From positions 1 to 35,573 of the IMG/VR virus record IMGVR_UViG_3300023115_000056: a DNA stretch of 35,573 nucleotides. One strand, given 5' to 3'. The translations under genes were made by a program, and so were the position numbers. Shown here piece after piece: positions 346 through 31,037 of the stretch (position 1 is its first letter; every line of letters begins with the position of its first letter). A model generated the notes under the pieces. The model was not told the DNA's origin. It was given only the letters and a program-made list of their open reading frames with translations, and searched no databases. This stretch comes from a virus.

Positions 346-624
346 ATGGGAGAGATATTTCAATTAATTGCTGATGTTGGGTTTCCTATTGCAGGCGCAT
401 GTGCTGCAGGATACTTTGTATTTTTAACAGTAAGGTTTATTCTTGAAGGAGTAACTGGTTCTGTTAAAGGAATGTCAGGAATCATCAAAGCACTTGATAA
501 AAGAGTTGCAGCAATGAATCATGATGTTATACGGATTGATACTAAAGTTAGTCACGCTTTAGGTATACCACCAGATTTAGATAGAATCGCTCGAGCAGAA
601 CAAAGTGATGCAAGAAGAGATTAA
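346..624 (+). CDS. Small single-TM membrane protein, paralogue of the gene at 721
   Basis: A 92-residue protein with a hydrophobic segment at residues 9-30 (GFPIAGACAAGYFVF) and an amphipathic, probably coiled-coil C-terminal half with charged residues. It aligns with the 91-residue protein at 721-996: both have GFPI, then GYFVF, then a (N)HDVIRI or NDLIRL motif and a KV near residue 70. The layout (short N-terminus, one TM, charged coil) resembles small BhlA/UviB-type holin-like proteins, but no family could be assigned. There is no Shine-Dalgarno site in front of the ATG; the late promoter octamer lies 5 nt upstream, suggesting a leaderless transcript. Confidence 0.75.
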   Translation: MGEIFQLIADVGFPIAGACAAGYFVFLTVRFILEGVTGSVKGMSGIIKALDKRVAAMNHDVIRIDTKVSHALGIPPDLDRIARAEQSDARRD

Positions 625-721
625 AAGATTGCCAAAAATGCTATATTATTGGTCACACGCTGACTTAATTAAAGCATTTATTTTAGGTACAATAATTGGA
701 TTTATTTTAGGGTATCTATAA
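608..721 (+). CDS. 37-residue single-TM protein
   Basis: A short ORF (starts MQEEIKRLPKMLYYW, ends in the hydrophobic LIKAFILGTIIGFILGYL) fills the space between the two paralogous membrane proteins. It overlaps the end of the first by 17 nt and its TAA shares one base with the ATG of the next gene at 721, the same TAATG junction seen between csgF, csgG and the curlin gene. An internal ATG at 638 is an alternative start. Function unknown; the C-terminal 18 residues form a probable membrane helix. Confidence 0.55.
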   Translation: MQEEIKRLPKMLYYWSHADLIKAFILGTIIGFILGYL

Positions 722-996
722 TGGACGCTATAGCAGATTTAATAGGTAAATATGGGTTTCCAATTGTTGCCGCAGGCGGATTAGGATATTTTGTATTCTA
801 TATTTGGAAATGGGTTACAGAAGAAATTGACCCGGTTATAAGTGAATCAAATAAAGTTTTAATTGAACTAATAGATCGTATTCGAATGCTAGATAATGAT
901 CTTATTAGACTCAATCAAAAAGTGAATGTTATTTTATCTTTACGGGAGAAAGAAAAAAAGGATGTTCACGATCAACAAAAAGATACTGATACTTAG
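721..996 (+). CDS. Small single-TM membrane protein, paralogue of the gene at 346
   Basis: A 91-residue protein: short N-terminus, TM segment at residues 12-30 (GFPIVAAGGLGYFVFYIW), then a charged helical tail with NDLIRL near residue 60 and a Lys/Asp-rich end. Clearly related to the protein at 346-624, so the pair looks like a tandem duplication with a tiny TM gene between. Its end overlaps the csgF reading frame by 35 nt. Position directly before csgF suggests co-transcription with the curli genes, but whether it acts with them (for example as inner-membrane partner) or is a holin-like protein cannot be told from sequence. Confidence 0.75.
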   Translation: MDAIADLIGKYGFPIVAAGGLGYFVFYIWKWVTEEIDPVISESNKVLIELIDRIRMLDNDLIRLNQKVNVILSLREKEKKDVHDQQKDTDT

Positions 997-1414
997 TATT
1001 CTTTCATGCAGCGTTTATGCTGAACCTCTAGATTTTACATTTAAAAGCCCGTCCTTTAATGGTAATGGGTATTCTGCTCATGTTCTTACAATTGAAAACT
1101 TAGAACATACTCGTCGTCAAGAAATAAAAGATAAGATTGAAGCAGAATTAGATAAAGCTAAACGTGAAGCCGAAGATACAAACTTAAATAAGTTTCTTAA
1201 TAACTTAGAATCACGTATCTATGCTCAAATTTCTCAAGACTTAGCAACAGCAATGTTTGCTGACGATGGATCTGCTCCTTCAAGTGGTACATTAAACTTT
1301 GAAGGTAATATTATCTATTGGAATAAAGACTCTACATCTATTAATCTTCAAGTAACTGATTTAACCGGTACAACTACATCATTAGCCATACCTCTCGGAG
1401 ATTTTACATTCTAA
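962..1414 (+). CDS. csgF: CsgF-like curli assembly protein
   Basis: A 150-residue secreted protein. The start is placed at 962 because it gives a good signal peptide (KKILILSILSCSVYA, cleavage before EPLDF) and a GGGAGA box lies upstream; the frame is open further back to an ATG at 926. The mature N-terminus carries FTFKSPSFNGNG, matching the CsgF pattern FxFxxPxFxG that in E. coli plugs into the CsgG channel. A helical middle (residues ~45-90) is followed by a C-terminal beta region ending SLAIPLGDFTF, as in CsgF. Expected role: periplasmic or outer-membrane partner of CsgG linking the pore to nucleation of curlin fibres. Overlaps csgG by one base (TAATG). Confidence 0.88.
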   Translation: MFTINKKILILSILSCSVYAEPLDFTFKSPSFNGNGYSAHVLTIENLEHTRRQEIKDKIEAELDKAKREAEDTNLNKFLNNLESRIYAQISQDLATAMFADDGSAPSSGTLNFEGNIIYWNKDSTSINLQVTDLTGTTTSLAIPLGDFTF

Positions 1415-2205
1415 TGAGAACGCTGATAATACTATTATTTGTAGTAATGGCATCTGGTTGTGCGACAAATCAGGCTATGAAAGGTGAATATGAACCAGCA
1501 ATGGTTGTTAGAGAAAACTTAGAAAAAGATTTTGATACTGTACCTGCCCCACAAAAAGGTAAAATTGCGGTTGCAGTATATAGTTTTGCAGATAAAACAG
1601 GACAAAGAAGACCTGCTCCTCCTGGTACAACAAGTTTTAGTACTGCAGTAACACAAGGGGCAGAAGCATTATTAATTAAGTCATTACAAGATGTAGGTAA
1701 ATCTCAATGGTTTGATGTTGTTGAAAGAGTAGGATTAGATAATCTACTTAAAGAAAGACAAATCATTAAACAAATGAGAGAAGCATATGAAGGATCTGAT
1801 GCTAAACCATTAATGCCTATGAAGTTTGCTGGTTTATTAGTAGAAGGTGGGATTGTAGGTTATGATTCAGCAACTAAAGAAGGTGGTGCAGCATATCGAA
1901 TGTTAGGTATTGGTCCACAAACACAATACAGTGAAGATATTATTACAGTAAGTTTGAGAGCAATAAGTGTTAATACCGGTGAGGTATTATGTTCAGTAAC
2001 TATAAAGAAAACAGTGTATTCAACAGCTGATAGTTTAGCAATATTAAAATTTTATGATTCAGGTACACAAGTTTTTGAATTTGAGTCTGGTTTAACTCTC
2101 AACGAACCAGCAACTCTAGCAGTTAAAGCCGCGATTGATTCAGCGGTAGTTGAGTTAATTAAAGAAGGCAAACGCAAAAACGTTTGGGATTATAAGGAAG
2201 AGTAA
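1414..2205 (+). CDS. csgG: CsgG-like outer-membrane curli secretion lipoprotein
   Basis: 263 residues, close to E. coli CsgG. It has a lipoprotein signal with lipobox ASGC (Cys16), then the CsgG core: VPAPQKGKIAVAVYSFADK, TGQ, FSTAVTQGAEALL, WFDVVERVGLDNLLKERQ, LLVEGGIVGYDS, TQYSEDIITVSLRAISVN, TGEVLCSV, FEFESGLTLNEP and NVWDY. CsgG forms the nonameric outer-membrane channel that exports curlin subunits. In the constriction loop the Phe (F75) is kept, the preceding Asn is Ser74 and the Tyr appears replaced, with two extra residues. Sits between csgF and the curlin gene with one-base overlaps on both sides. Periplasmic CsgE and CsgC are not seen in the window. Confidence 0.93.
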   Translation: MRTLIILLFVVMASGCATNQAMKGEYEPAMVVRENLEKDFDTVPAPQKGKIAVAVYSFADKTGQRRPAPPGTTSFSTAVTQGAEALLIKSLQDVGKSQWFDVVERVGLDNLLKERQIIKQMREAYEGSDAKPLMPMKFAGLLVEGGIVGYDSATKEGGAAYRMLGIGPQTQYSEDIITVSLRAISVNTGEVLCSVTIKKTVYSTADSLAILKFYDSGTQVFEFESGLTLNEPATLAVKAAIDSAVVELIKEGKRKNVWDYKEE

Positions 2206-2975
2206 TGAAAAACATAGTAAAACTTATGATGCTATTGTTGACTCCTACTTTGTTTGCTGCAGATAACTCGATCTATATTGATCAAGCAGGTGATAGTTCT
2301 AATATTAATATTACTCAAGATGGTGGTGGTAATCAAATCTATGATGTAACCTCAGGTTCTACGTCAACAGATTATGCTACACTGTCTGGTGATAGTCAAA
2401 CAATAGACATTGATCAAATAGGTGGTAGTAATGTGTTAAAGTTAGGCATTCAATCTACAGTATTATCTGGTGTTGGTGTTAACTTAACATATTTTATTAC
2501 TGGTTCAAATTCAGTTGCATCGTTAGATTTTAATGCTGACGGTCAAGGCACATTGGCTAACTTAGTATTTGATGTAACACAAACTGGAAGCTATAACGAT
2601 TTATTTGCTGATATACTTGGTTCAAATAATTCAGTAGTAGCAACAGCAACCGGTGGTAGTTACAATGACTTTAACTTTACAATTAATGCAGATGATGTTT
2701 CCGTTAATGCTGCAATCAGTGGAGGTGGTGGTAATACATTAACTACAAACCTAACAAGTGATTCAGGTTTAGTTGATGTAACTTCTGTTGGAGCATCAAA
2801 TACATTTAGTCTTACACAGTCTGGTGTAGGTGGAACTAACGGTCATGGTATAACATTGGATGTTACAGGTTCAAGTAACTCATTTACAACATCACAGAGT
2901 GGCGCAATTGATACAACTATTGACATTACATCGGTGGGTTCTAATAACACTTGGTCTATTACTACTTCTGATTAG
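2205..2975 (+). CDS. Curlin-repeat secreted protein (CsgA/CsgB-like)
   Basis: 256 residues with a signal peptide (cleavage near TLFA-ADNS). The mature start, IYIDQAGDSSNINITQDG, is a curlin-type repeat (pattern I-x-I-x-Q-x-G-x-x-N-x-x-x-I-x-Q). More degenerate repeats follow, e.g. QTIDIDQIGGSN, GSYNDLFADILGSNNS and SNTFSLTQSGVGG, in a Gly/Ser/Thr/Asn/Asp-rich, cysteine-free sequence expected to form a beta-solenoid/amyloid. It is the likely substrate of the CsgG pore encoded directly upstream and resembles the repeat region of the protein at 4038. Longer and less regular than E. coli CsgA/CsgB. Its 3' end overlaps the probable signal-peptide region of the FecR gene in another frame. Confidence 0.85.
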   Translation: MKNIVKLMMLLLTPTLFAADNSIYIDQAGDSSNINITQDGGGNQIYDVTSGSTSTDYATLSGDSQTIDIDQIGGSNVLKLGIQSTVLSGVGVNLTYFITGSNSVASLDFNADGQGTLANLVFDVTQTGSYNDLFADILGSNNSVVATATGGSYNDFNFTINADDVSVNAAISGGGGNTLTTNLTSDSGLVDVTSVGASNTFSLTQSGVGGTNGHGITLDVTGSSNSFTTSQSGAIDTTIDITSVGSNNTWSITTSD

Positions 2976-4041
2976 TACAACATTGTTGGGTGCTGTTGGT
3001 AAAATTACAAATCAACAGCACGATCCAGCAACAATTGAACGTCAAAAGAAAATTATAGACGGTGTTAAAGGCACTGGCGTCGAAATGAATGACTCACTTA
3101 AAACAGGTGAGGGCAAACTGGGTATTACATTTATTGATGATACTACAGTACAAATGACAGAGAATTCTAAACTTGTCATTGATGAATTTGTATATGATCC
3201 TAATCAAAAAGATGCCGGTAAGTTAGCAATTAAAGTAGCATCAGGGACAGCAAGATATGCAAGCGGGCAAATCGCAAAAAACGATCCTAGCAAAGTTAAA
3301 ATACAAACTCCAACAGCCACAGTTTCTGTACGTGGTACAGATTTTACTGCTACCGTTGGTGAACTTGGTGATAGCACTATTATTCTTTTACCTAGTTGTC
3401 CTGTAGGCTATAAGAAGATAGAAGAATGTACAGTTGGTGTTATTGATGTAGAAACAGGTGCTGGTACAGTAACACTAACAGAAGCATTTTCAGCAACAGT
3501 TGCTACTTACTATGAGAAACCACCTACTCCTCCGGTTAAATTAGACTTAACCGAAAATCAAATATCAAATTTACTTATCTTATCTAAACCAAAAGAATTA
3601 AGAGAAAATCAAAAAGAACAAATTACAATTAAAAGTGCTTTAGATGCAAACTTTCTTGATGTAGATAATTTAAATAATGAACTAGAAGCACAACAAAAGA
3701 ATCTATATGCTGATGCCCTTTCAGAGGATCTATTAGATAGAGATTTCTTACGTAATATATTAGATCTAATTAACTTACAATTAGTTAAAGCAGATGAAAG
3801 AAGATTAGCAGTTAAAAGAGGCGATGAATTATTACCTGACTATGATCCTGATGGACCAGTTAAAGCAACAGTTGATGGTATTGGTGTAACACTATGTATG
3901 GAAACTGGACCAAGTGATGTAAGTTGTGTTCGAACACCGACATCTCAAAATTCAACAATCATACAAACACAAGGTTCTGTGTCAATTACAAACAGGGTTA
4001 ACGATACCGGTACAACAATTATAGAAACTAATCAGAAATGA
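2920..4041 (+). CDS. Secreted FecR-domain protein
   Basis: About 373 residues from the TTG at 2920. The frame is open back to an ATG at 2860, and GTG 2899 is another option; none has a clear ribosome site. Start 2920 is preferred because it gives a compact signal peptide (HRWVLITLGLLLLL, then STTLLGA), so the gene overlaps the end of the curlin gene by 56 nt. The FecR domain is plain: FIDDTTVQMTENSKLVIDEF, then LAIKVASGTARYASGQIAK and the hallmark TPTATVSVRGTDF. The C-terminal half is helical and charged and ends in an NSTIIQTQGSVSITN stretch that looks like a curlin-type strand. No FecI-type sigma factor is nearby. FecR domains of this secreted type often accompany CHASE2 cyclases, as here, so a periplasmic sensing or scaffold role is possible. 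Confidence 0.82.
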   Translation: MTLHRWVLITLGLLLLLISTTLLGAVGKITNQQHDPATIERQKKIIDGVKGTGVEMNDSLKTGEGKLGITFIDDTTVQMTENSKLVIDEFVYDPNQKDAGKLAIKVASGTARYASGQIAKNDPSKVKIQTPTATVSVRGTDFTATVGELGDSTIILLPSCPVGYKKIEECTVGVIDVETGAGTVTLTEAFSATVATYYEKPPTPPVKLDLTENQISNLLILSKPKELRENQKEQITIKSALDANFLDVDNLNNELEAQQKNLYADALSEDLLDRDFLRNILDLINLQLVKADERRLAVKRGDELLPDYDPDGPVKATVDGIGVTLCMETGPSDVSCVRTPTSQNSTIIQTQGSVSITNRVNDTGTTIIETNQK

Positions 4042-5423
4042 GATACTTAATATTCATATTGATGTTTGTGTGTTCAACCGTATTGGCCATAACCTATAAT
4101 CCATATGGATCATCTGGATTGAATACCTCTTATAGTGGCAACTATGATGATGGATCTGTTGCTGTTAGTTTACCTTGGTCGGTGAGTTTTCTTGGCACCA
4201 GTTATAGCACAGCCTATGTTGGCACCAATGGATATGTCACGTTTGGGTCTGGCAATAGCACCTATTATAATTTTTCCGCATCAAATCCATCACAACCACA
4301 TATCGCAGTATATCCTGGCGACCGTAGATTATATACATTATATACTGGTGAGGTCAATGGTGGCACATCGTCTGCCTATTTTGTGATTAGGGTAGAGGGT
4401 GTTGATTATTCCAATGCCGCTATCACCCATGTCTATGAAATTCATTTTTATGCCAACCAAAGTTACTTTGATGTTATCTTTGTTGATGCTCCCTCCTCAG
4501 GAAATCAAAATGGTGGAACATCAGGCGTCAGCGATGGCACAACCTATGAATCAACCTTCACAGTTACAGAGGGAACTGCTATACGACTCAATCTTTCTGA
4601 TGGCAGTGAAGTATCAACAACATCAACATCTACCACAACTGGAACAAGTTCAGGTCCAACTTCAACACAGGCAACAAGACGATCAGAGGCTATAACACGC
4701 AGAGACAGTTATTATGATAATGGCATCTACATTGATCAAGCAGGATCAAATAATTCAATAACCATATTACAGGACAGCAGTGATAATCAGATCAGAGGTA
4801 TTGACCAACAACGAGCTAAGATGTGGGGAAATAACAATACCTATGATATCCGCCAGGGTGCTCCTACCACCACAGGTATTAACTTGATTGAACTCATGGT
4901 AGATGGCGATAGTAATAATTTAACACTGTTCCAAGATAGATTTGATGCTGGAACACCAGATTCAAGTGCTAGTGGTGATAATATATTAAGAATTGACATA
5001 GATGGTAATTCAAACACTGTAGCAACTAATCAACGAGGTGAAACAAATGCTGGTGGTCAATTTGGTGAGATTAATATTACTGGTGATTTAAATGATGTTA
5101 CAATGGTTCAGCGTTCAACTCTTTCTGAAACTGCGTTTATAGATATTACAGGAAATAGTAATGTTGTTGATTTACTACAACAGAATACTTCTAATGCAGT
5201 AGGTTCTACTAAGTTTGCTGATATTAAATTGACAGGAGATGGTCATACTGTTAACTTAACACAAGATGGTACAGGTGGACATCAAGCAACTATTGATCTA
5301 ACTTATGGTTCAGCGCCTTCAACTTTAAATTTAAATCAATTAGGTAGCACTAGTCAATCATTTTCACTAGAACAAACATGCTATACCTCAGGTGGATGTT
5401 CTACAACACTAACTCAACAATAA
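4038..5423 (+). CDS. Second curlin-repeat protein with an extra N-terminal beta domain
   Basis: 461 residues, starting in a 4-nt ATGA overlap with the FecR gene. Signal peptide to about residue 17 (FVCSTVLA). Residues ~18-185 form a separate domain with SFLGTSYSTAYVGTNGYVTF, then aromatic-rich strands, resembling nidogen-like extracellular beta domains. A Ser/Thr linker (~195-225) follows. Residues ~230-461 are curlin-type repeats: IYIDQAGSNNSITILQD, DGDSNNLTLFQD, DGNSNTVATNQRG, TGNSNVVDLLQQ, HTVNLTQDG. The first repeat closely matches that of the protein at 2205. Two Cys near the C-terminus (CYTSGGC) could form a disulphide. Possibly an adhesive or cap subunit of a curli-like fibre. Codons in the N-terminal part look richer in G/C than in the repeat part, suggesting a mosaic. 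Confidence 0.8.
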   Translation: MRYLIFILMFVCSTVLAITYNPYGSSGLNTSYSGNYDDGSVAVSLPWSVSFLGTSYSTAYVGTNGYVTFGSGNSTYYNFSASNPSQPHIAVYPGDRRLYTLYTGEVNGGTSSAYFVIRVEGVDYSNAAITHVYEIHFYANQSYFDVIFVDAPSSGNQNGGTSGVSDGTTYESTFTVTEGTAIRLNLSDGSEVSTTSTSTTTGTSSGPTSTQATRRSEAITRRDSYYDNGIYIDQAGSNNSITILQDSSDNQIRGIDQQRAKMWGNNNTYDIRQGAPTTTGINLIELMVDGDSNNLTLFQDRFDAGTPDSSASGDNILRIDIDGNSNTVATNQRGETNAGGQFGEINITGDLNDVTMVQRSTLSETAFIDITGNSNVVDLLQQNTSNAVGSTKFADIKLTGDGHTVNLTQDGTGGHQATIDLTYGSAPSTLNLNQLGSTSQSFSLEQTCYTSGGCSTTLTQQ

Positions 5424-5434
5424 ATAAATAAAAT

Positions 5435-7444
5435 ATGAAGAAGATACTACTCAGTCCTTGGTTAGCCTTAATTACTTTAGGCTTTATCTTATACATAAGA
5501 ATGCTTGATCCAACATTCGTTGAATCAATGAGATTAAGGTACTTTGATACTTTAATTGCAGGCAAAACTCCTACAGAAAATAATATCTATACTGTCAATA
5601 TTGATGAAGCAACGTTAGATAAGTATGGACAATTCCCATTTAAACGTGATATCTATGCAAAGATTATAGATGACTTATATCAAAGAAATGCTGGATTAGT
5701 TGTATTTAATATCTTAATGCCTGAAGCAGATCGACAAGGTGGTGATGCTAAACTGGCCGAAACACTTAACAAATATGGTAATGTTGTTTTATCAAATGCT
5801 CCCTCCGAAGTAACTAAAAATAATCCAAAAGCACCAGGTTCTGCAGTTATTAATGCACAGTTTTCTGATATGATTATCCAATATCCAGGCATTATAGCAA
5901 ATATACCTGAATTAGAAAATGCTGCGGCCGGTATTGGTATTACTAATATGCTATCTGAAATTGATGGTGTCAATCGAAGAATTCCATTAGTTATAACATA
6001 TAATGAAAAGATCTATCCAAGCTTATCACTCGAAACATTAAGAGTTGCAGTAGGTGATTCTACGGTACAAGTTAAATTGTTTGAAGGTGGTATAGAAAAG
6101 ATGAGGATACCTGCGGTTGGTCAATTATCAACTGATGCGCTAGGTCGAATATGGATAGATTATAGTCAAAAATCAAAATCATTTTCAGCAGTAGATTTAC
6201 CAAAAGACTTTGATGGTGGTATAGTTATTGTTGGAGTAACAGCAGCTGGTTTAGCTAATCCTTTACCAACTGCAATTGGTGGTCTATGGCCACACGATGT
6301 TCAGGCTGCAGTGATAGGAACACTTGCAAATGGTGTTAATATACAACGACCAGACTGGGCAGATGGAGCTGAGATACTTGCATGGTTAGTACTTGGCATT
6401 ATTGCGATATTTTTAACGAGGTGGAAACATGGTTACTTTGGTATTATTTTCATTGGGATTCTTATGTATTATAGTGGCAATACACTTTTTACACAATCCT
6501 CCACACTGGTCGATATATCTTACGGTATTTTGGCTCTTGCTATTGTATATCTACATAGCTATACTGTTAAATTCATAACAGAACTTAATCAAAAATTACA
6601 AATTAAGAAACAATTTGGTACATACTTATCACCAGCTCTTGTAGAAAAACTACAAAAGAATCCTGAGTTATTAAGACTTGGTGGTGAAAGAAGAGATCTA
6701 TCAATAATGTTTACTGATGTTCGAGGATTTACAACAATATCAGAACACTATGGAGATAACGTTGAAGGTTTAACCGAGATCATGAATCGATATATGACAG
6801 CAATGACTCAAAAGATATTAGATAATAATGGGACATTAGACAAATATATTGGTGATGCACAGATGGCATTTTGGAATGCACCATTAGATGATAATGATCA
6901 TGCGATTAATGCAGTTAAGACTGGTTTACAAATGTTAGGGGACTTAGATGAATTCAATCAAGAAATTTCTAAAGAAGGTATCCCACCATTCGGAATGGGA
7001 TTGGGCATTAATACCGGCAGTGTTATTGTTGGTAACATGGGTAGCAGTCAACGTTTTGACTATACTTGCCTCGGGGATGCGGTTAATCTAGCATCAAGAC
7101 TTGAAGGACAAAGTAAGACATATGGTGTTAGAATTATCCTTGGAGAAGGCACTGCAAAACTTGTAAAAGATAAATATACAGTAATAGAATTAGATACCAT
7201 TGCAGTTAAAGGTAAAACTGTAGGGGTTAAGGTATATACAATTGCTGACATAGCAGACATAACTGCTCATAAGAAATATTTAAGAGCATATTATGCAGGT
7301 CAATGGAATGCAGCAATTGTCATGATTCAACACTTAGTGAAAGCAAATTCTGAATTGAAACAATATTATACGAATATGCTCGAACGGTTGAATGAAGGTT
7401 GTCCTAAAGATTGGGACGGTACATATAAAGCAACAAGCAAATAA
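5435..7444 (+). CDS. CHASE2-class III adenylate/guanylate cyclase
   Basis: 669 residues, membrane-bound. N-terminal TM (residues ~8-22), then a periplasmic CHASE2 sensor domain (~25-300; NIYTVNIDEATLDKYGQFPF, GITNM..DGVNRRIPLV, IVIVGVTA), three TMs (~310-375), and a class III cyclase domain (~415-600). Catalytic residues are all present: metal-binding D428 in FTDVRGFT and D474 in DKYIGDAQMAFW, base-recognition K470 and T544 (DYTCLGD), and transition-state N551 and R555 (VNLASRLE). The Lys/Thr pair is typical of bacterial adenylate cyclases, so cAMP is the likely product. Last gene of the curli block, 12 nt after the second curlin gene, preceded by AT-rich AATAAATA at 5423-5430. A signalling cyclase is very unusual in a phage. 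Confidence 0.92.
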   Translation: MKKILLSPWLALITLGFILYIRMLDPTFVESMRLRYFDTLIAGKTPTENNIYTVNIDEATLDKYGQFPFKRDIYAKIIDDLYQRNAGLVVFNILMPEADRQGGDAKLAETLNKYGNVVLSNAPSEVTKNNPKAPGSAVINAQFSDMIIQYPGIIANIPELENAAAGIGITNMLSEIDGVNRRIPLVITYNEKIYPSLSLETLRVAVGDSTVQVKLFEGGIEKMRIPAVGQLSTDALGRIWIDYSQKSKSFSAVDLPKDFDGGIVIVGVTAAGLANPLPTAIGGLWPHDVQAAVIGTLANGVNIQRPDWADGAEILAWLVLGIIAIFLTRWKHGYFGIIFIGILMYYSGNTLFTQSSTLVDISYGILALAIVYLHSYTVKFITELNQKLQIKKQFGTYLSPALVEKLQKNPELLRLGGERRDLSIMFTDVRGFTTISEHYGDNVEGLTEIMNRYMTAMTQKILDNNGTLDKYIGDAQMAFWNAPLDDNDHAINAVKTGLQMLGDLDEFNQEISKEGIPPFGMGLGINTGSVIVGNMGSSQRFDYTCLGDAVNLASRLEGQSKTYGVRIILGEGTAKLVKDKYTVIELDTIAVKGKTVGVKVYTIADIADITAHKKYLRAYYAGQWNAAIVMIQHLVKANSELKQYYTNMLERLNEGCPKDWDGTYKATSK

Positions 7445-7456
7445 CGGGAGATTATT

Positions 7457-7789
7457 ATGGCTGAAGATGTAAAGGGGTTTCACCCAGCAGATACAAATGG
7501 TGATGGAGTAGTTTCACCTGAAGAACAAAAAATGTATCTGGAATTTAAACGAAAAGAATTAGAAGACCAAGATGCAATGAGAGATGCACAAAGAAACATG
7601 GCATGGTTTGCATTATTTGGTATGTTACTCTATCCATTTGCTGTTGTTCTTGCAGTATTATTAGGTTTAGATAGTGCAGCTAAAATCCTTGGTGATATGG
7701 CTGCAACATATTTTGTTTCTGTTGCTGCGATTGTAGCTGCATTCTTTGGTGGTCAAGCATTTGCTGCCAAGAAACCTGCTGCTAAATAA
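7457..7789 (+). CDS. EF-hand motif, two-TM membrane protein
   Basis: 110 residues. Residues 12-24 contain one EF-hand calcium loop (DTNGDGVVSPEE), followed by a charged helix (residues ~25-48) and two hydrophobic helices (WFALFGMLLYPFAVVLAVLL and FVSVAAIVAAFFGGQAF), ending with a short Lys/Ala tail. Good ribosome site (GGGAG) before the ATG. Small EF-hand membrane proteins of this design occur in marine T4-like phages, where the function is not known. It follows the cyclase gene by 12 nt and could be co-transcribed; a late promoter directly after it starts the next transcript. Confidence 0.8.
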   Translation: MAEDVKGFHPADTNGDGVVSPEEQKMYLEFKRKELEDQDAMRDAQRNMAWFALFGMLLYPFAVVLAVLLGLDSAAKILGDMAATYFVSVAAIVAAFFGGQAFAAKKPAAK

Positions 7790-13474: not shown

Positions 13475-14113
13475 ATGTCATTTGAATTCGATTTCACACA
13501 AGCAAAACTAGAGGACCTTTTGAAGGGAAACAAAGAAGTGTCATCTTGGCATGAAGCAATGGTTGAATACTTTCCTAAATTCGAGATTACTACAGCTCCA
13601 AGAGTTGCGGCATTCATTGCGCAGTGTGGACACGAATCAAGGAATTTTACTGTACTCACAGAAAACTTGAACTACTCGGCCGAAGCATTAGATAAAATAT
13701 TTCCAAAGTATTTTAAAAATGCTGGCCGAGATGCTCAAGAATACCATAGACAACCAGAAAAAATTGCCAATGTAATCTATGCTAATCGTATGGGTAATGG
13801 TGATACAGAATCTGGAGATGGTTGGTTCTATAGAGGAAGAGGCCCAATCCAATTAACTGGTAAGGATAACTATACAAACTTTGCTAATGATTTCTTTGAT
13901 GATCCTGAAACAGTTATGGATGATCCTGATCTACTATGTGACCACATACCAACCGCTTTATTAGCTGCTATTTGGTTCTGGAACAAGAATGGACTAAATA
14001 AGTATGCTGATGAAAAAGATATTAAAGGTATGACAAAGAGGATCAATGGTGGATATATTGGTTTAGAAGATAGAATCAAGCACTATGATCATGCTATGGA
14101 AATCTTAGGATAA
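13475..14113 (+). CDS. Glycoside hydrolase family 19 endolysin
   Basis: 212 residues. GH19 (chitinase/lysozyme-like) signatures: FIAQCGHESRNFTVLTENLN, with the likely catalytic Glu at 54 and a second Glu at 63; then ANRMGNGDTESGDGWFYRGR followed by GPIQLTGKDNY, the most conserved block; and TKRINGGYIGLEDR near the end. Expected to cleave the glycan strands of peptidoglycan at the end of infection. No signal peptide, so release would need a holin; the small membrane protein directly upstream and the lipoprotein directly downstream suggest a lysis cassette. GGGAG ribosome site. Confidence 0.9.
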   Translation: MSFEFDFTQAKLEDLLKGNKEVSSWHEAMVEYFPKFEITTAPRVAAFIAQCGHESRNFTVLTENLNYSAEALDKIFPKYFKNAGRDAQEYHRQPEKIANVIYANRMGNGDTESGDGWFYRGRGPIQLTGKDNYTNFANDFFDDPETVMDDPDLLCDHIPTALLAAIWFWNKNGLNKYADEKDIKGMTKRINGGYIGLEDRIKHYDHAMEILG

Positions 14114-15055: not shown

Positions 15056-15601
15056 ATGAAACCAAGAGTTATTGTACTTGCAATTTTTATTTTATTTGTT
15101 TTATCGATAGCAATCTTTGAAACAGAACCAGATGCTAAAACATCATATCAAGAAGACCAGATAATACGATATTCTCAACTTGATGAATCAGATCGAAGAC
15201 AAGTTGAGTGTTTGGCACAGAATATATATTACGAAGCTAGAGGTGAAAGCGAAGACGGACACATTGCTATAGCTCTCGTAACAATGAATCGATCTTTAAG
15301 TAAACTATATCCTGATGATGTATGTCATGTTGTTAGAGAAAAGCTTGGAAAAACCTGTCAATTTACATGGTGGTGCGATCCAAATCTAAGAAGTAAAGCG
15401 ACAACATACAATTATACAAAATTAGAAAGAAAAGTATATGATGATATTAGGGAACTCGCATTACATTTATATGTCAATCGAGATAATATAGAAGACTTGA
15501 CTGGAGGTGCAATCTTTTATCATGCTAACTACGTTAACCCACGTTGGAAGTATAAAAAGACAGCACAAATAGGAAAACATATTTTTTATAAAAGAAAGTA
15601 G
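15056..15601 (+). CDS. SleB/CwlJ-type cell wall hydrolase with signal anchor
   Basis: 181 residues. N-terminal hydrophobic segment (VIVLAIFILFVLSIAIF) acts as a signal anchor or uncleaved signal. The hydrolase domain (~45-178) has LAQNIYYEARGESEDGHIAI with the conserved Glu60/Glu64, then IALVTMNR, DVCHVV, CQFTWWCD and GGAIFYHANYVNPRW, as in the SleB/CwlJ (Hydrolase_2) family of peptidoglycan-cleaving enzymes. A membrane-exported muralytic enzyme could act in lysis alongside the cytoplasmic GH19 enzyme. AAGGAAG ribosome site and its own promoter. Confidence 0.88.
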   Translation: MKPRVIVLAIFILFVLSIAIFETEPDAKTSYQEDQIIRYSQLDESDRRQVECLAQNIYYEARGESEDGHIAIALVTMNRSLSKLYPDDVCHVVREKLGKTCQFTWWCDPNLRSKATTYNYTKLERKVYDDIRELALHLYVNRDNIEDLTGGAIFYHANYVNPRWKYKKTAQIGKHIFYKRK

Positions 15602-29821: not shown

Positions 29822-30753
29822 TGGCTTTACAATCTTCAGGTCAAATATCATTAAAGAATATTGCTGACGAATTTGGAGATGCTGCACCTCATTCAATGAG
29901 TGAATTTTACAGTGCTGCTGCTGGAGTTCCTGCATCAGGACAAATTAAACATAGCAATTTTTATGGTAAAGCTTCTACTAAATCAGTATCAATTACTGTA
30001 TATGGTGCTAGTGGTGGATCAAATGGAGGAAACGATGCAGGTGGCCAAGGCGGTACTGTCGTATGGAATGGAACAATGTCACCTGGTACTGTGCTAACTA
30101 TGTATGTTGCTCGAGCAGGAACAAACGGAAATAATCAGGGTAGAGCTGGCGGTGGAGGCGGAGGAGCTTCTGCTGTATTAATTGGTAGCACTTTAATTGC
30201 TATTGGCGGTGGAGGCGGAGGAGCTGGCGCAGACGGAATAAATAATGCATCAACATATGGTGGCGCTGGGGGTGCTGATACTGGACAAAGTGGCGGAAAT
30301 AACTTAAATCACGTTGGAGCCGCGTATGGTGGCGGTGGAGGTACACAAAGCGGTGTGGGTGGCGGTGGTTCAGGTTCACGAGGAACAGGTAATTCTGGCT
30401 CTGGAAGAAATGGTGGTAATGGTATATTTTCAGGTAATAATGGAACATTTGCAGGCGGTTGGGGATATGGTACTGGTGGTAATGGTTATTTAGATCTTGG
30501 TGATGGAGGATCTGGAGGGGGTGGTGCTGGATACTTTGGTGCAGGATCAGGTGGTAGAAATGCTTCAGGAGCAGGCGGCGGAGGAGGTTCTAATTATAGA
30601 AGGACTTCAAGTATGCCAACCGGAGTAACATATATATCATCTACTACAACACGAGGTGGTAGAAGCGGAAATGGGCAAATTATAGTTACTGTTGATGGTG
30701 TATCAACAACATATAATTACGTATCAAATACAACACAAACGAGAACAATTTAA
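29821..30753 (+). CDS. Glycine-rich tail fibre adhesin
   Basis: 310 residues. N-terminal ~50 residues (MALQSSGQISLKNIADEFGD, PHSMSEFYSA, GQIKHSNFYGK) form the attachment motif found at the start of many marine phage tail proteins. Residues ~55-310 are very rich in Gly with many runs (GGGGGGAS, IAIGGGGGGAGADG, GGGGTQSG), resembling the polyglycine receptor-binding tips of T-even gp38 adhesins (e.g. phage S16) and other Gly-rich host-recognition proteins. Probable receptor-binding protein. It overlaps both neighbours by one base. The high G content of the Gly codons makes this the most GC-rich gene in the block. Confidence 0.75.
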   Translation: MALQSSGQISLKNIADEFGDAAPHSMSEFYSAAAGVPASGQIKHSNFYGKASTKSVSITVYGASGGSNGGNDAGGQGGTVVWNGTMSPGTVLTMYVARAGTNGNNQGRAGGGGGGASAVLIGSTLIAIGGGGGGAGADGINNASTYGGAGGADTGQSGGNNLNHVGAAYGGGGGTQSGVGGGGSGSRGTGNSGSGRNGGNGIFSGNNGTFAGGWGYGTGGNGYLDLGDGGSGGGGAGYFGAGSGGRNASGAGGGGGSNYRRTSSMPTGVTYISSTTTRGGRSGNGQIIVTVDGVSTTYNYVSNTTQTRTI

Positions 30754-31037
30754 TGCCAGCAGTTACACGATTAGGAGATATATGTTCAGGTCATGGGTGT
30801 TATCCACCTAGGGTTAATGATGAAGCAAGTACTAATGTATTTGTGAATGGTATTGGTGTACATCGAGAAGGTGATCACTGGGTAACACATTGTTGTGGTC
30901 CTTCTTGTCATGATTCTGTATTAGCAAAAGGATCAGATACAGTATTTGTTAATGGTATACCTGCAGCTAGAATTGGTGATCAAGTTGCATGTGGATCTAT
31001 TGCAGCACAAGGTTCACCAAGCGTATTTTTCGGTTAA
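30753..31037 (+). CDS. PAAR-motif spike tip protein
   Basis: 94 residues. Two PAAR-type repeats with GxxxxxG turns (VTRLGDICSGHGCYPPRVND, VNGIGVHREGDHW, VNGIPAARIGDQVACG) and conserved Cys/His residues (CSGHGC, THCCGPSCH) that can bind a metal ion at the apex. PAAR proteins (gp5.4 in T4) sharpen the tip of the gp5 spike for membrane piercing. It starts in a TAATG overlap with the adhesin gene and ends 19 nt before gp25. Confidence 0.9.
   Translation: MPAVTRLGDICSGHGCYPPRVNDEASTNVFVNGIGVHREGDHWVTHCCGPSCHDSVLAKGSDTVFVNGIPAARIGDQVACGSIAAQGSPSVFFG

Follow-up and report, generated by a model that had tools for sequence, protein, structure and literature searches.

What use does a phage have for curli genes? 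For phages that infect the ocean's most abundant bacteria, sibling capture, exclusion, lysis and nutrient uptake have all been proposed since 2020, and the virus record IMGVR_UViG_3300023115_000056, a viral contig of 35.6 kb analyzed here over its whole length of 35,573 nucleotides (“the window”), raises the question again: it carries a curli module at positions 346–7444, with all genes on the + strand. CsgF/CsgG clusters are known from pelagimyophages (Zaragoza-Solas 2020; PMC7029224), and the full gene order, FecR and cyclase included, from podo- and myoviral pelagiphages, in which the module was found at all 65 GOV2.0 stations and detected in marine metatranscriptomes (Wittmers 2022; PMC9599517). 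The set of curli, FecR and cyclase genes is thus already known, being present also in HTVC008M and Melnitz, and the window is a further example; the novelty that a first-pass annotation of this sequence had implied for the addition of FecR and a cyclase does not stand. What is new are exchangeable heads on the second curlin, a FecR tail specific to the curli setting, and a pair of small membrane proteins without a kinase domain. We consider it about an even chance (probability roughly 0.5) that the module encodes a late surface fibre with variable adhesin heads, in which the FecR protein would act as anchor or nucleator and as sensor for the cyclase, the whole serving adhesion.

The composition of the module proposed by the first-pass annotation (CsgF, CsgG, two curlins, FecR and a CHASE2 cyclase) was borne out by Pfam and by the relatives. 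CsgF (962–1414) has a signal peptide and matches PF10614 (3.5e-13; 50.3 bits against a cut-off of 25.8) and phrog_35372 (1.4e-56), while a phmmer search with it against the PDB found nothing; CsgG (1414–2205) has the lipobox ASGC of an outer-membrane lipoprotein, matches PF03783 (1.2e-49; 169 bits against a cut-off of 20.8) and aligns over residues 1–261 with solved CsgG (4e-51). By analogy with their families we infer that CsgG and CsgF form an outer-membrane pore with CsgF as its plug or chaperone. There follow curlin 1 (2205–2975), the FecR-domain protein (2899–4041; PF04773, 8.3e-10), curlin 2 (4038–5423) and a protein with a CHASE2 sensor (PF05226, 1.5e-40) and a class III nucleotide cyclase domain (Guanylate_cyc PF00211, 6.9e-20) at 5435–7444. 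The genes had been described as overlapping along the module, and most junctions are indeed overlaps of 1 or 4 nt, with longer ones between csgF and the preceding small gene B (the csgF start at 962 falls within that gene) and between fecR and curlin 1, but a gap of 11 nt separates the cyclase gene from that of curlin 2. With the curli system of E. coli (csgBAC/csgDEFG) the window has CsgG, CsgF and curlin repeats in common; it differs in that a plain and a headed curlin replace CsgA/CsgB, FecR and the CHASE2 cyclase are added, and CsgE was not found; the absence of CsgE reported earlier extends to the 19 phage records searched, none of which gave a match.

The two repeat proteins are curlins. 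Both have signal peptides (judged by eye). Curlin 1 matches Curlin_rpt (PF07012, 4.7e-5) above the Pfam cut-off, as do 23 of the 40 members of the curlin 2 family; curlin 2 of the window falls under the cut-off (0.085). Structure prediction (AF2/VIA; AF2, AlphaFold 2) models its C-terminal part, residues 221–461, as a regular β-solenoid; Foldseek with curlin 2 returned no match at E ≤ 0.001. The solenoid model is also tailspike-like, and the repeat proteins might be read as ordinary phage tail fibres or tailspikes; with Sec signal peptides on both proteins, Pfam curlin repeats and fixed positions flanking fecR in the module, we rejected this reading, which we regard as extremely improbable.

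The N-terminal part of curlin 2 is the variable element of the module. Related contigs L003, L004 and L005 are 94–96% identical to the window over 719–4073 and 91–95% past 4626, and their alignment breaks precisely at 4074–4625, the curlin 2 head, which in L003 is a PA14 domain. Within this lineage the curlin 2 tails are 99% identical and the heads about 42%, and a second lineage repeats the pattern (L054 versus L058: tail 85%, head 26%). Heads are therefore swapped between phages that are otherwise about 95% identical. Across the family they comprise PA14 (7/40), F5/8 type C (6/40), GLEYA (3/40) and others, types which by domain assignment are carbohydrate-binding or adhesin domains; the head in the window is nidogen-like as judged by eye. 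An exchange of sugar-binding domains suggests changing ligands rather than a pore function. The main text of Wittmers 2022 (PMC9599517) mentions neither PA14 nor lectin or adhesin heads, nor jumbo phages, and the paper is not known to describe a curlin-like tail on FecR.

That tail is the second line of evidence. Although the reading frame of FecR extends back to 2854, the start that matches the relatives is the GTG at 2899, within curlin 1, giving a 77-nt overlap. Many relatives likewise have a start codon 76 nt before the stop of curlin (−76), which makes GTG 2899 the most likely start; the signal peptide of FecR would then be read from the final curlin repeat in a different frame. The AF2 model (mean predicted local distance difference test score, pLDDT, 83.6) has a signal/transmembrane helix, the FecR domain, a helical linker and a C-terminal β unit of six strands about 11 residues apart, with a pLDDT of about 90, that resembles the curlin 2 model. 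A terminal strand of the form “xIxIxQ” was found in 48/57 phage FecR clusters and 53/99 curlins, as opposed to 12/1428 other open reading frames (ORFs), counts which include related, non-independent sequences. Beside bacterial CHASE2 cyclases the tail occurs in one of 44 FecR matches, that of L109, the single locus with curli, and in none of the 43 FecR proteins without curli. An alignment of the FecR tail to curlin by hhalign was not significant (probability 2–7%, P 0.005–0.02), which counts against the fibre reading and leaves the argument for the tail resting on motif statistics and the model; these give a strong hint that the FecR protein of curli modules ends in a curlin-like strand specific to the curli setting.

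The FecR domain itself shares its fold with the FecR/PupR anti-sigma regulators, as seen from the match to PF04773 and from structural matches to the PupR cell-surface signalling domain (Z 15.3) and to BDI_1681 (Z about 14). It also superposes, less closely, on 5ix9, a cell-surface anchoring domain of an RTX adhesin, over 73/76 residues (Z 6.6, root-mean-square deviation 2.3), where a Z under 8 may reflect a common arrangement only. This fold, together with the lack of a CsgE gate in the phage records, is what speaks for the nutrient import considered in PMC9599517, with an ungated CsgG pore and FecR as an iron-citrate regulator in siderophore or cofactor uptake. Unlike the FecR/PupR regulators, however, the FecR protein of the window begins directly with the signal/transmembrane helix, lacking the cytoplasmic N-terminal anti-sigma domain, no neighbouring sigma factor or TonB receptor was seen in the module, and the protein ends in a curlin-like tail; we judge import very unlikely.

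A FecR protein next to a CHASE2 cyclase is a common arrangement in alphaproteobacteria. The nearest cellular relatives of the phage cyclases are alphaproteobacterial, and many are encoded directly downstream of large FecR-domain proteins; the single one of these proteins that was scanned has laminin-G, cadherin and weak RTX domains. In such pairs, as in the window, a FecR-domain protein is encoded ahead of a homologous CHASE2 cyclase; they differ from it in having an adhesin (on the evidence of that one protein) instead of curli, and FecR proteins that do not end in a curlin-like strand. If the fibre reading is true, it would suggest that the FecR–CHASE2 pairs of alphaproteobacteria likewise respond to the condition of a fibre or adhesin on the cell surface.

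The cyclase of the window retains D428, K470, D474, T544, N551 and R555, the full set of class III residues, and its Lys/Thr pair predicts ATP as substrate. Compared with 91 relatives, D428, K470 and D474 are invariant and N551 is kept in 85/91, with Ser at this position in six, Melnitz among them. The cyclases of L012, L013, L014, L015, L026 and L028 combine the change of the catalytic Asn to Ser with a change of the substrate Thr to Asp, and their activity may be reduced. Since neither a cyclic-nucleotide-binding protein (PF00027) nor PycTM (PF18967) was found in the 19 phage records, several of which are fragmentary, a phage-internal effector was rejected, and a receptor in the host is implied. 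Two further observations concern the cyclases. A free-standing copy of the cyclase C-terminal tail, of 100–130 residues and corresponding to profile positions of about 560–663, is in most cases found immediately ahead of csgF (L006:6766–7143, L063:4643–5011, L080:2529–2942 and about 20 others). PycTM, a Pycsar effector family, is encoded in the bacterial locus L109 (12497–13090; 8.8e-25) downstream of the CHASE2 cyclase; a link to Pycsar was dropped because the near-identical module of L205 has no PycTM.

Ahead of the csg genes, as the first-pass annotation had noted, lie small membrane proteins, which proved to be two paralogs of 91–92 residues: protein A (346–624; 92 residues; phrog_18771, 3.6e-33), with one hydrophobic stretch followed by a probable coiled coil, and protein B (721–996; phrog_18771, 4.1e-35). 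Where a locus has a single csgF, a full-length cyclase and sufficient upstream sequence, at least two genes of this type are present in 55/60 cases, either upstream or in the opposite orientation. When A by itself was the query, csg, fecR or cyclase genes were found in 76/80 loci, including all 37 counted loci longer than 18 kb, and the remaining four are short or end near the A gene; the small pair is strictly linked to the curli module. It occupies the position labeled “HK” by Wittmers 2022, whose phage type VIII secretion system (T8SS) module runs, exactly as in the window, from the short gene(s) through CsgF, CsgG, CsgA/B, FecR and a second CsgA/B to an adenylate cyclase. The name “histidine kinase” (PMC9599517) was rejected for these small genes, whose products of 91–92 residues lack a kinase domain: no Pfam match to HisKA or HATPase was obtained for B and its relatives even at an E of 10, nor for A at 0.1. 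Between the two lies a hydrophobic membrane ORF of 37 residues (608–721), recognized by reading the sequence and translationally coupled to B via TAATG; it is missing from the close relative L005 and therefore probably not essential.

The small pair is also where the case for lysis begins. A and B show a weak similarity to holins (phrog_4898, 7e-5 to 2e-4, matched in 8/9 members, under the curated thresholds), and 5/9 members a weak similarity to YvrJ (best 0.27, below the cut-off). A role in lysis was proposed for the csg cluster of Melnitz (Buchholz 2022; PMC9004378), such that a gated CsgG:CsgF pore and small holin-like proteins would time the lysis of the cell, to which the strict linkage of A and B and a late promoter would be suited. 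But a pore in the outer membrane does not by itself depolarize the inner membrane, and lysis needs neither two curlins with signal peptides, nor exchangeable lectin heads, nor a FecR protein with a curlin-like tail. Adhesion, be it for host capture or for exclusion, is better supported since it accounts jointly for heads, curlins and FecR tail, whereas a lysis pore accounts only for CsgG/CsgF and perhaps the small pair. Of the functions suggested in the first-pass annotation it is thus fibres that fit best, with pore-assisted lysis leaving the curlins, their heads and the curlin-tailed FecR unexplained; we hold lysis control to be quite unlikely.

The late promoter placed at 333 by the first-pass annotation is a T4-type element, TATAAATA, at 333–340 on the + strand, with a predicted start at or beside the ATG of the gene for A. 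In related loci that have the small pair upstream on the same strand, 23/68 show this motif in the 150 bp preceding the first small gene, where local density predicts 0.66; its commonest position is 12–14 nt before the ATG. The exact motif is missing in many of the remaining related loci, and it is not over-represented across the whole window (7 found, 8 expected). By T4 promoter geometry, the transcripts of the module would be near-leaderless. This timing bears on superinfection exclusion, also proposed in PMC9599517, in which a coat of fibres around the infected cell would hold off or capture rival phages, the heads serving as decoys or glycan masks: expression from a late promoter comes late for this purpose, and the heads look like sugar-binding adhesins, not receptor mimics. 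The anatomy of the module would be identical, exchangeable heads fit an arms race, and sequence does not separate exclusion from adhesion; as a purpose of its own we think exclusion rather unlikely.

The adhesive fibre that we favor would work as follows. Late in infection the phage would make the host surface adhesive: curlin 1 would be exported via the CsgG:CsgF pore as the body of the fibre, and curlin 2 would co-assemble through its curlin-type C-terminal half and display its lectin-like N-terminal head. The N-terminus of FecR would anchor the protein in the periplasm or inner membrane while its curlin-like tail, in a role like that of CsgB, most likely nucleates the fibre or holds it in place; FecR would report the state of the fibre to CHASE2, and the cyclase would in response make a cyclic nucleotide acting on a host receptor, with the A/B pair as an obligatory inner-membrane partner. 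Infected cells or their remains may then stick to further hosts or particles, or be masked against competing phages. The earlier suggestion of secretion plus signalling within one late module is supported by these data. More tentatively, the system might be a fibre-state sensor, with FecR as a periplasmic anchor whose tail seeds amyloid at CsgG:CsgF, strain or occupancy read by CHASE2 to switch the cyclase, and a diversifying fibre with rapidly exchanged lectin heads catching the next host, in phages ranging from pelagiphage-like to jumbo T4-type. Several observations, besides the hhalign result and the lack of a cyclic-nucleotide-binding protein in the phage records, weigh against the adhesive fibre: the head of the window's curlin 2 has no Pfam match and a low-confidence AF2 model, some members of the family have a headless curlin 2 and others no curlin 2, and cultures infected with Melnitz did not clump (PMC9004378), so that the effect may require the right partner surface. 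If the fibre is adhesive, the virus makes infected cells sticky, which bears on aggregation and host finding in dilute water; exchangeable sugar-binding heads and a curli-specific FecR tail make the curli question concretely testable.

How widespread is the module? Scans of IMG/VR with CsgG and the cyclase gave 105 matches. The order csgF-csgG-curlin-fecR is a nearly invariant core, shared by dozens of viral contigs of independent origin, with curlin 2 and the cyclase directly after it or a few kb off, at times inverted. The ratio of nonsynonymous to synonymous substitution rates (dN/dS) is about 0–0.25 for the module genes in comparisons of the window with its two closest relatives, indicating purifying selection; this and the recurrent core order argue that the module is more than chance. 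The six-gene order that was expected in related phages is present in HTVC008M and the Methylophilales phage Melnitz, with two small genes ahead and the cyclase behind, as well as in widespread viral contigs; CsgG and cyclase of these two phages are 38–44% identical to those of the window, and the Melnitz cyclase differs also in its Ser for the catalytic Asn. The link to pelagimyophages drawn in the first-pass annotation holds approximately, with HTVC008M and Mosig as relatives: the gp6-like baseplate protein of the window shares about 41% identity with its counterparts in these two Pelagibacter phages, a value by which the window phage is classed as T4-like and without a close isolate, and its cyclase is 38–39% identical to those of HTVC008M and Melnitz. 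Identities of 54–69% were found to cyclases on viral contigs of up to 344 kb. Contigs of 229–344 kb with a diverged T4-type portal (L047, L059, L063, L080) carry the curli module, and by their size and portal these jumbo-sized carriers extend it beyond the pelagiphages of the earlier papers; a search of the available literature returned no paper on jumbo phages with curli.

Among alphaproteobacterial csgF loci, 2/20 examined have fecR and the cyclase, both in Caulobacteraceae and in the order csgF-csgG-curlin-curlin-fecR-cyclase; in at least these two cases, then, the genes do lie in bacterial T8SS operons, contrary to the view that they are absent from such operons. The Caulobacteraceae copies cluster with phage lineages in the trees of CsgG and of the cyclase, the latter tree containing no other bacterial rows; a bacterial ancestor of the module was not upheld, and transfer may have run in either direction. 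L109 and L205 have near-identical csg-fecR-cyclase modules in differing chromosomal surroundings that group with the phage copies, and a phage-to-cell transfer is possible. OR851715.1 (L029), a 1.5-kb “Salmonella phage” record encoding CsgG, branches beside cellular alphaproteobacterial CsgGs and is probably host or contaminant DNA.

Downstream of the cyclase, a small EF-hand-like membrane protein (7457–7789, + strand; weak EF-hand match) is present in six loci only and is probably outside the core of the module. Elsewhere in the window, inspection by eye points to a short protein with the appearance of a PAAR-type tail-spike tip (30753–31037) and to two probable cell-wall hydrolases, one GH19-like (13475–14113) and one SleB-like (15056–15601).

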